From assembly GCF_900102425.1 (NCBI RefSeq), contig NZ_FNBT01000010.1:1-64000 (forward strand): 64,000 bases of DNA. Direction: 5' to 3'. The DNA is from Blastococcus aurantiacus (GTDB taxonomy: Bacteria > Actinomycetota > Actinomycetes > Mycobacteriales > Geodermatophilaceae). Positions 829 through 2,750 of this stretch are shown here, piece after piece. Each line of letters opens with the position of its first letter. Positions within the stretch are counted from its first letter, which is position 1. The notes under the pieces are model-generated. The model saw nothing but the letters and a program-made list of their open reading frames with translations. It made no database searches and was not told where the DNA came from. The translations under genes were made by a program, and so were the position numbers.

Positions 829-2226
829 ATGCGGCTCCCGGACGGTCTCGTGGCCGTGGTGAAGCGCGAGTGCCCGACCTGCGTGCTCGTCGAGCCGGTG
901 CTCCGGGAGCTCGGCGCCGAGGTCTGGTGCCAGGACGACGCCGGCTGGTTCGAGCACGACGACACCGAGCTCGAGCTGTCCTATCGCCTGGGCATCGAGA
1001 CGGTGCCGACCCTGCTGCGCATCCAGGACGGCGAGGAGACCGCCCGCGTCGTCGGCTGGAGCCGCGAGCAGTGGGAGGCCCTCACCGGCGTCCCAAGCCT
1101 GGGCGCGGACCTTCCCGAGCACCGCCCGGGCTGCGGCTCGCTGTCGGTCGACCCGTTCCGCATCGACGCGCTGGAGGCCCGCTACGGAGGCAGCGGTCTC
1201 GGCAGCCGCCGGGTGGAGCTGGCAGACCTCGAGGACGAGCACGAGGCGATGTTCGACCGCGGCTGGACCGACGGTCTCCCCGTCGTCCCGCCCACCCTGG
1301 AACGCGTCCTGCGGATGCTGCGCGGCACGACCCGCGCGCCCGGCGATGTCGTCGCGGTCGTGCCGCCGGACCTCGTCGAGTGCACGGTCGAGAAGGTCGC
1401 CGTCAACGCGGTGATGGCCGGCTGCCTCCCGGAACACCTGCCGGTCGTGCTGGCGGCGCTGGAGGCGGCGTGCACCGAGGAGTTCGCCCTGCACGGCCTC
1501 CTGGCGACGACGTACTTCTCCGGCCCCATGATCGTGGTGAACGGCCCGATCGCCCGCCGGATCGGCATGAACAGCGGGGTCAACGCCCTGGGCCAGGGCA
1601 ACCGCGCCAACGCCACGATCGGCCGGGCGCTGCAGCTCGTCGTCCGCAACGTCGGCGGCGGCCGGCCCGGCGGCATCGACCGCGCCACTCTCGGCAACCC
1701 GGGCAAGCTCACCTCCTGCTTCGCCGAGCGCGAGGAGGGCAGCCCCTTCGCACCGCTCGCCGCCGACCGCGGCGTCCCCGGTGACGCGGTCACCCTCTTC
1801 GCCGGCTCGGGCGTGCAGCCTGTCGTCGACCAGCTGAGCCGGACGCCCGAGTCCCTGGCGCGCTCGTTCGCGGCCTGCCTGCGCGTCAACGGGCACCCGA
1901 AGCTGCCGCTGTCGTTCGACGCGGTCCTCGTCGTCTCCCCGGAGCACGGGCGCGTCTTCCGCGAGGCCGGCTGGGACCGGGCCCGGCTGGTCGCCGAGAT
2001 CGAGGGCCTGCTGACGCTGGACGCCGACGAGCTCGTCCGCGGCGCCGGCGGCATCACCGAGGGAGTGCCCGAGGCGCTCGCCGGCAGGAAGCTGCCCAAG
2101 TTCCGCCCCGGCGGGCTGCTCGTGGTGCACGCCGGTGGCGACGCCGGCCTGTTCAGCGCCGTCGTCGGCGGCTGGGTGTCCGGTACGACCGGGAGCTCCC
2201 CGGTGACTCGAGAGGTGCGCGCATGA
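829..2226 (+). CDS. Thioredoxin-like domain fused to a UGSC-associated domain
   Basis: This 465-residue protein has two parts. Residues about 1-90 look like a thioredoxin fold, with CPTC at residues 15-18 (KRECPTCVLVEPVL) and a cis-Pro-like TVPTLL further on. From about residue 130 there is a conserved domain containing WTDGLPVVPPT and CTVEKVAVNAVMAGC that commonly accompanies UGSC-family genes. I know no enzymatic activity for it. The ATG at 829 is chosen because the Trx fold begins directly after it; the frame is open further upstream but that part is not protein-like. The stop overlaps the start of the UGSC selenoprotein gene (ATGA at 2223-2226), so the two are probably co-translated. The CXXC suggests it reduces the Sec/Cys centre of its partner (inference). 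Confidence 0.75.
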   Translation: MRLPDGLVAVVKRECPTCVLVEPVLRELGAEVWCQDDAGWFEHDDTELELSYRLGIETVPTLLRIQDGEETARVVGWSREQWEALTGVPSLGADLPEHRPGCGSLSVDPFRIDALEARYGGSGLGSRRVELADLEDEHEAMFDRGWTDGLPVVPPTLERVLRMLRGTTRAPGDVVAVVPPDLVECTVEKVAVNAVMAGCLPEHLPVVLAALEAACTEEFALHGLLATTYFSGPMIVVNGPIARRIGMNSGVNALGQGNRANATIGRALQLVVRNVGGGRPGGIDRATLGNPGKLTSCFAEREEGSPFAPLAADRGVPGDAVTLFAGSGVQPVVDQLSRTPESLARSFAACLRVNGHPKLPLSFDAVLVVSPEHGRVFREAGWDRARLVAEIEGLLTLDADELVRGAGGITEGVPEALAGRKLPKFRPGGLLVVHAGGDAGLFSAVVGGWVSGTTGSSPVTREVRA

Positions 2227-2750
2227 GAACCGTCCTGGACCCGACCGGCGAGCAGCAGGCATCGGTGCGGGAGCTGCTCCCGCGTCCGGCGTCCCTGCGC
2301 GGCCGCACGGTGGGCCTGCTCGACATCAGCAAGCCCCGGGGGGACGTCGTCCTCGACCGGCTCGAGGAGCTGCTCGCCGCGGGCGGCGCCGTGGTGCGTC
2401 GGTACCGCAAGCCCACGTTCACCCGGACCGCGCCGGTCGACCTGCGGCACGAGATCGCCGAGCAGTGCGAGGTGGTCATCGAGGCGCTCGCCGATTAGGG
2501 CTCGTGCACGTCGTGCAGTGTGCACGACATCGCCGACCTCGAGCGCCGTGGCGTGGTGGGGGTCTTCCTCGCCAGCGAGGTGTTCGCCGACGCCGCCCGG
2601 TTGCAGGGCGCCGCACTCGGCTTCCCCGCGCCGTTCGTGCTGGTGCCGCACCCGGTCCAGGACCGCACCGACGCCGAGCTGCGTGCAGCCGCCGAGGGTG
2701 CCTACGCCGCGGTCGTCGCCGCCGTCACCGCCGGGGGAGGAGCTGCCTGA
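2223..2750 (+). CDS. UGSC-family selenoprotein with UAG-encoded selenocysteine
   Basis: Reading through the TAG at 2496-2498 gives one 175-residue protein with Sec as residue 92. Residues 1-91 end in EIAEQCEVVIEALAD. The codon after the TAG opens G-S-C-T-S-C-S-V-H-D and continues through LERRGVVGVFLASEVF to AAVTAGGGAA. Both halves are in the same frame, and the split falls exactly at the U of the family's U/C-G-S-C motif, where relatives carry UGA-coded Sec or Cys. An 8-bp hairpin begins 4 bases after the TAG. UAG-decoding tRNA-Sec has been reported in Geodermatophilus and Blastococcus. The Sec-Gly-Ser-Cys centre implies a redox enzyme; the substrate is unknown. The gene overlaps the CPTC-containing gene upstream by four bases. 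A standard gene caller would truncate it at 91 residues. Confidence 0.85.
2499..2527 (+). promoter_or_regulatory. Putative bacterial SECIS hairpin for UAG recoding
   Basis: Immediately 3' of the TAG at 2496-2498, TCGTGCAC (2502-2509) pairs perfectly with GTGCACGA (2520-2527). This makes an 8-bp stem around a 10-base loop (2510-2519). Two G-U wobbles (2510/2519 and 2511/2518) could extend it to 10 bp with the hexaloop CGUGCA. In the bacterial systems I know, the SelB-binding hairpin lies directly downstream of the Sec codon with its loop at about this distance. A bulged U like that of the E. coli fdhF element is not obvious, so SelB recognition is inferred. Confidence 0.65.

Follow-up and report, generated by a model that had tools for sequence, protein, structure and literature searches.

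Predicted selenocysteine insertion at an in-frame UAG codon of a UGSC-family gene in Blastococcus aurantiacus and the tRNA-Sec anticodons of Geodermatophilaceae

The UAG codon at positions 2496-2498 of the window, a stretch of 64,000 nucleotides from Blastococcus aurantiacus (NZ_FNBT01000010.1, positions 1 to 64,000), very likely encodes selenocysteine (Sec), with a probability of about 0.95, and is predicted to be read by the genome's own tRNA-Sec with a CUA anticodon. The original prediction had proposed that this codon lies within a 175-residue protein that would otherwise be cut to 91 residues, and this is supported by homology, by the Sec/Cys column of the family and by the tRNA-Sec(CUA).

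The use of UAG for Sec in UGSC proteins and formate dehydrogenases of Geodermatophilaceae is already in print. The relevant passages of PMC5330540 describe three Geodermatophilaceae genomes with a tRNA-Sec of CUA anticodon, credit its reference 56 with formate dehydrogenases and with selenoproteins of the UGSC motif, cite Mukai 2016, and add an AhpC of Blastococcus saxobsidens DD2 that has UAG; the prediction had likewise given tRNA-Sec(CUA) and UAG-Sec as reported in Geodermatophilus and Blastococcus. Passages in two reviews (PMC10778597, PMC8124441) also give UAG as a codon used for Sec in some bacteria, citing Mukai 2016. The window gene resembles the published Geodermatophilaceae cases in tRNA-Sec(CUA) and bacterial family but comes from another species, and it shares UAG-Sec and probably the genus with the AhpC described for B. 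saxobsidens DD2 in PMC5330540, although the protein family is different. Set against the UGSC family as given in the GOS study (PMC2398784, in the passage on this family), NF041046 and PF24696, it has the same U/C-G-S-C motif and an above-cut-off score but uses UAG, not UGA. The window gene is confirmation from a further species of a natural exception to the genetic code that had already been reported. What is added here is a census of 112 genomes, the finding of three genera within the family that keep UCA, a hairpin common to UAG and UGA orthologues, and a genome, that of Geodermatophilus sp. LHW52908, with both anticodons.

The UGSC gene and the decoding machinery of its genome

The features of the window that concern the gene are as follows.

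829..2226, + strand, upstream gene with a thioredoxin-like N-terminal domain containing CPTC and a long uncharacterised C-terminal part
2223..2750, + strand, predicted UGSC-family selenoprotein gene, 175 residues with the internal TAG as Sec at residue 92
2496..2498, + strand, in-frame TAG, predicted selenocysteine codon and first residue of the U-G-S-C motif
2510..2528, + strand, predicted SECIS hairpin, 8-bp stem pairing 2510-2517 with 2521-2528, loop GUG at 2518-2520, 11 bases past the TAG

The open reading frames of the window place the gene in one frame on the + strand, from an ATG at 2223 to a TGA ending at 2750. As had been claimed, the two halves share this frame and are parted by the single TAG, which is preceded by 91 residues and followed by codons for Gly-Ser-Cys-Thr-Ser-Cys-Ser-Val-His-Asp (GSCTSCSVHD); readthrough gives 175 residues. 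The read-through protein scored above the cut-offs of NF041046 UGSC_fam (residues 27-168, 140.3 bits against 125) and PF24696 (residues 3-169, 145.9 bits against 25) and was the sole NF041046 match of its genome. The motif of the family, Sec or Cys followed by Gly-Ser-Cys, is present as TAG-GSC, and alignment to UGSC members placed the TAG exactly on the Sec/Cys column. Among the 120 database relatives listed, the majority span only about half of the query, probably because gene calling ends at the TAG, here after 91 residues. The open frame past the TAG was considered as coding evidence and rejected, since 4779 of 9108 sampled 83-codon stretches on the + strand of this GC-rich window (52%) are also open; the evidence is homology.

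The decoding machinery that the prediction had proposed to look for was found in the genome, with selD, tRNA-Sec(CUA), selA and selB lying side by side in this order on one stretch (L009).

L009:6646-7653, minus strand, selD, 388.4 bits (NCBIfam cut-off 125)
L009:8253-9584, selA, 416.3 bits (NCBIfam cut-off 267.9)
L009:9575-11320, selB, 288.6 bits (NCBIfam cut-off 242.25)

The tRNA gave an end-to-end match to RF01852 of 64.2 bits (cut-off 47), with the anticodon CUA (CTA in DNA). It was one of eight tRNA-Sec model matches in the assembly, which is 97% complete; the other seven, one of them above the cut-off, were tRNA-Ser, Tyr, Leu or Met. A genome with tRNA-Sec(UCA) only would have spoken against UAG decoding, and none of the eight matches was a tRNA-Sec(UCA). 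All three protein frames are open and above cut-off, and that of selD, free of internal stops, carries GGGCACKI near its start, which we take to be the Cys form of SelD. By the known bacterial pathway SerRS would charge the tRNA-Sec(CUA), SelA would convert Ser to Sec with the product of SelD, and SelB would deliver the Sec-tRNA to a UAG having the hairpin on its 3' side, while a UAG lacking the hairpin would remain a stop.

The fold of the UGSC protein was examined using a model with Cys at residue 92, which gave a mean pLDDT of 92.0 and alternating strands and helices, with residue 92 between strand 84-90 and helix 93-108. A structure search returned matches scattered over many Rossmann-like families, the best being 8s7v_H (Z 11.4) and AerR (Z 10.8), followed by two ketoreductases and BdcA (Z 10.3-10.4) and by receiver domains, reductases and LarB (Z about 9-10). 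No single clear fold family emerged, and a search by sequence of chains of known structure gave no UGSC match (best E 0.29). The predicted fold is Rossmann-like, with Sec at a strand-helix turn, and is not an obvious thioredoxin fold; a thioredoxin fold is suggested in the passage of PMC2398784 on the UGSC-containing selenoprotein family.

The TGA of the upstream gene overlaps the ATG of the UGSC gene, the two sharing ATGA at 2223-2226. The thioredoxin match of the upstream protein was weak, covered its start and did not reach the models' curated cut-offs; the closest named proteins among the 120 relatives listed were Blastococcus thioredoxin (family) proteins, 95% identical, and the structural model was poor, with a mean pLDDT of 49. 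A redox role for the UGSC protein with this thioredoxin-like partner may be proposed, in which Sec would work as a redox-active or nucleophilic selenolate and could be reduced by the upstream-encoded protein.

Codon and hairpin in UGSC genes

The codon at the Sec/Cys column was read in 74 UGSC loci and was TAG in 45, TGA in 12, TGC in 14 and TGT in 3. It had been claimed that the residue ahead of GSC is Sec or Cys in the family, so that relatives with neither would count against the reading, and all 74 loci agreed with this; the database alignment had Trp or Arg at the column in 4 of 27 rows and a gap in one. Nine orthologues of the same subfamily from other families, 60-78% identical, carry TGA at the Sec column. 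A draw of 298 genomes of the order gave 64 UGSC matches, with 32 TAG, no TGA and 4 stop-free among the 36 in Geodermatophilaceae, and 15 TGA, no TAG and 13 stop-free among the 28 in other families, where all 15 in-frame stops were TGA. The search of all 112 Geodermatophilaceae genomes gave 95 matches in 54 genomes, of which 72 contained one in-frame stop, TAG every time, and 23 were stop-free, with no TGA; both tallies are manual counts of the rows, and some genomes occur in both searches. All TGA UGSC orthologues belong to other families. The Sec codon tracks lineage, being TAG in Geodermatophilaceae and TGA elsewhere among the sampled families.

Bacterial SECIS elements are hairpins located shortly 3' of the Sec codon, as a review passage agrees, and the hairpin past the TAG looks, from its sequence, like such an element. 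In the alignment, bases 12-19 past the codon pair with bases 23-30 around a loop GU(G/C/U). Pairing was found in 277 of 288 cells, taken from the 36 distinct sequences among 57 UAG and UGA rows, compared with only 41-163 of 288 when the stem was slid by 1-3 columns; the structure was drawn from the same sequences as were scored, which biases the comparison towards the hairpin. Two-sided changes occurred at four of the eight pairs, mostly between subfamilies. The 17 Cys-coded UGSC rows paired in 76 of 136 cells, with the GUG loop in a single row (L023). The codons beneath the hairpin, TCG-TGC-AGT-GTG, were invariant among 39 orthologues, and the Ser codon AGT, used in 39 of 39, does not occur among the 80 Ser codons of four ORFs of the window (GC3 0.968). 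Folding of 45 bases gave the hairpin as the lowest-energy structure for 33 of the 39 orthologues, and all 18 other Sec-coded rows also had it as their lowest-energy fold. The stretch of the window itself had it as such at only two of eight lengths, 45 and 55 bases, with a rival stem winning at the other six (30, 35, 40, 50, 60 and 65 bases). The hairpin is common to UAG and UGA genes, which implies that codon and anticodon changed and the putative SelB signal stayed.

The TAG might instead be a true stop, arising by nonsense mutation or sequencing error, and the gene either a pseudogene or one that encodes only 91 residues. TAG is indeed still an ordinary terminator in the window, where the stops of 34 gene-like ORFs (at least 150 residues, chosen by codon-position GC) are 32 TGA and 2 TAG, and this indicates recoding at marked sites and not a genome-wide reassignment of UAG. 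A true stop at this position is nevertheless very improbable given the recurrence of TAG at the same column in other loci and throughout the stop-containing matches of the family, the hairpin conserved past it, the retention of both halves at 70-94% identity in family orthologues, and the coding-like GC by codon position of the 3' half.

Suppression of the UAG with an ordinary residue such as Ser or Cys, in a cell whose Sec machinery is silent would also produce the full-length protein. We regard this as just as improbable as a true stop, since the two-sided hairpin changes and the strict AGT are needed for SelB-dependent insertion and not for suppression, the selA, selB and selD frames are open and score above their cut-offs, and selB was matched in all 51 family genomes among the matches listed (75 genomes with no match are not itemised). 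Pyrrolysine is the least probable of these alternatives: ARAGORN labels the CUA tRNA as tRNA-Pyl, in our reading because of its anticodon, but the tRNA is a full-length RF01852 match above cut-off located between selD and selA-selB, and the residue that it would insert aligns with UGA or Cys codons of relatives.

Formate dehydrogenase and the tRNA-Sec anticodons of Geodermatophilaceae

The suggestion that the codon change acts on one gene did not hold, as TAG occupies the Sec site of a second gene of the same genome.

L133:391-3690, minus strand, formate dehydrogenase gene, QARI-TAG-HSSTVPGLG, TAG at the Sec site

The encoded protein scored above the cut-offs of NF041513 and TIGR01553 and below that of TIGR01591. 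Used as a query it gave matches in 100 of the 112 family genomes, and on our reading of the rows TAG is listed in each match spanning residue 190; at the loci themselves TAG at this residue was verified in all 30 search loci and in each of 9 further loci covering it. All 30 fold into a 7-bp hairpin with the loop GGUCU, a loop that the hairpin of the query gene itself also has. Seven rows also list TGA, which in six lies at the gene end, past query residue 1090, and which in the remaining row, a piece at a contig end (G357), was not seen when the locus was checked. The second TAG listed in two rows (G308, G342) was likewise unseen at the locus, and in the two rows with TGA only (G164, G325) residue 190 falls outside the match. 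The rarity of UAG as a stop may have eased the codon change.

Matches to tRNA-Sec were obtained in 108 of the 112 genomes, the four without one being 72-82% complete. ARAGORN assigned anticodons in all 108, giving CUA in 101 genomes of nine genera and UCA in 7 genomes of three genera (g78, g79 and g80), whose assemblies consist of 190-550 contigs. A strict anticodon-arm pattern picked up an arm in 103 of the 115 stretches. Of these, 95 were CUA arms, every one CGGC-CUCUAAA-GCCG, 7 were UCA arms, CGGU-CUUCAAA-ACCG, and the last came from LHW52908. In the 12 stretches missed by the pattern ARAGORN found tRNA-Sec in 8 and none in 4. Comparison of the two arms indicates that the pair closing the loop changed, with compensation, together with the anticodon. 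One assembly (G328, 88% complete) carried tRNA-Sec(CUA) twice, on separate contigs (L256 and L306), and may be a strain mixture.

The presence of UCA in seven genomes of the family means that the change from UCA to CUA lies inside it, and we infer a single event, at the base of the genera with CUA. No formate dehydrogenase match was obtained in any of the 7 UCA genomes, and no TGA-Sec was seen in this branch, where two of the seven have a UGSC match, both Cys-coded. The family offers a natural experiment in which codon and anticodon shifted jointly and the hairpin was kept, with the change point between sequenced genera.

tRNA-Sec anticodons in Geodermatophilus sp. LHW52908

LHW52908 (G085) was the only one of the 108 genomes with both anticodons. 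It contains a tRNA-Sec(CUA) (L144), a UGSC gene with TAG (L024), a match to formate dehydrogenase that likewise has TAG, and one selB match, and has in addition a second tRNA-Sec, with the anticodon UCA (81.8 bits), at 1173-1263 of scaffold24 (NZ_QVQH01000024.1, here C17; the stretch is given also as 1169-1263). An AhpD-like frame lies 0.3 kb from this tRNA.

C17:1579-2154, AhpD-like ORF, PF02627 28.2 bits (cut-off 23, with TGA scored as Cys)

The ORF is interrupted in frame by a TGA at 1870 (CFY-TGA-MESH) and carries a SECIS-like hairpin. Its relatives were searched with six peptides, one spanning the Sec site, and 64 of 67 loci, LHW52908 included, aligned over the column in one best piece, with 63 TGA and one TGC. 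The hairpin paired in 414 of 420 cells from 60 distinct TGA rows, compared with 62-298 in slid controls, and the loop was GUU in 59. The TGC locus (L196, a Latescibacterota MAG) kept the whole hairpin sequence, and looks like a recent change from Sec to Cys. ARAGORN, run on stretches from 60 of the 67 loci, found no tRNA-Sec beside the AhpD-like gene in the 59 other than that of LHW52908.

The first 6 kb of scaffold24 look foreign: they have 64% GC, and their tetranucleotide correlation with the 20 reference stretches never exceeds 0.63. The correlation is intermediate at 6-18 kb (0.57-0.80), and at 18-69 kb it is 0.80-0.91 with four other LHW52908 stretches, which agree with one another at 0.82-0.92; other Geodermatophilaceae and a genome of another family (G122, 0.83-0.86) correlate with this part about equally. 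Placing the segment in its host by DNA searches failed: the matches listed for C17:20001-26000 among 12 congeners were all short or weak, the best reaching 67% over about 620 bases, and neither the LHW52908 genome nor 14 others had another complete copy of the left 1160 bases. Because these searches gave no tie to congeners, the link between segment and host rests on the assembly and on composition. In a plasmid search with the segment only the tRNA stretch matched, in 5 records. Two of these, plasmids of Arthrobacter sp. YA7-1 and Tsukamurella tyrosinosolvens (L348, L349), carry selA, selB, selD and formate dehydrogenase together, with the tRNA-Sec-like stretch between selA and selD.

We give even odds to the candidate reading of this one draft assembly, that LHW52908 encodes Sec with two codons, using its own tRNA-Sec(CUA) for the UAG sites of UGSC and formate dehydrogenase and an imported, AT-richer segment with tRNA-Sec(UCA) for the UGA of the AhpD-like gene. 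The imported cassette would bring its own tRNA and borrow SelA, SelB and SelD from the host. A chimeric or contaminant contig is a possible alternative source of scaffold24. No case of two Sec codons in one bacterium or genome was found in the open-licence PMC literature, and the passages of PMC5330540 that treat genomes with several tRNA-Sec name none with two different anticodons. A selenoprotein gene entering a lineage that uses UAG for Sec would be unreadable unless its own tRNA came along. If the candidate is true, a genome with both tRNAs shows how a change of code blocks gene transfer and how a cassette circumvents the block.
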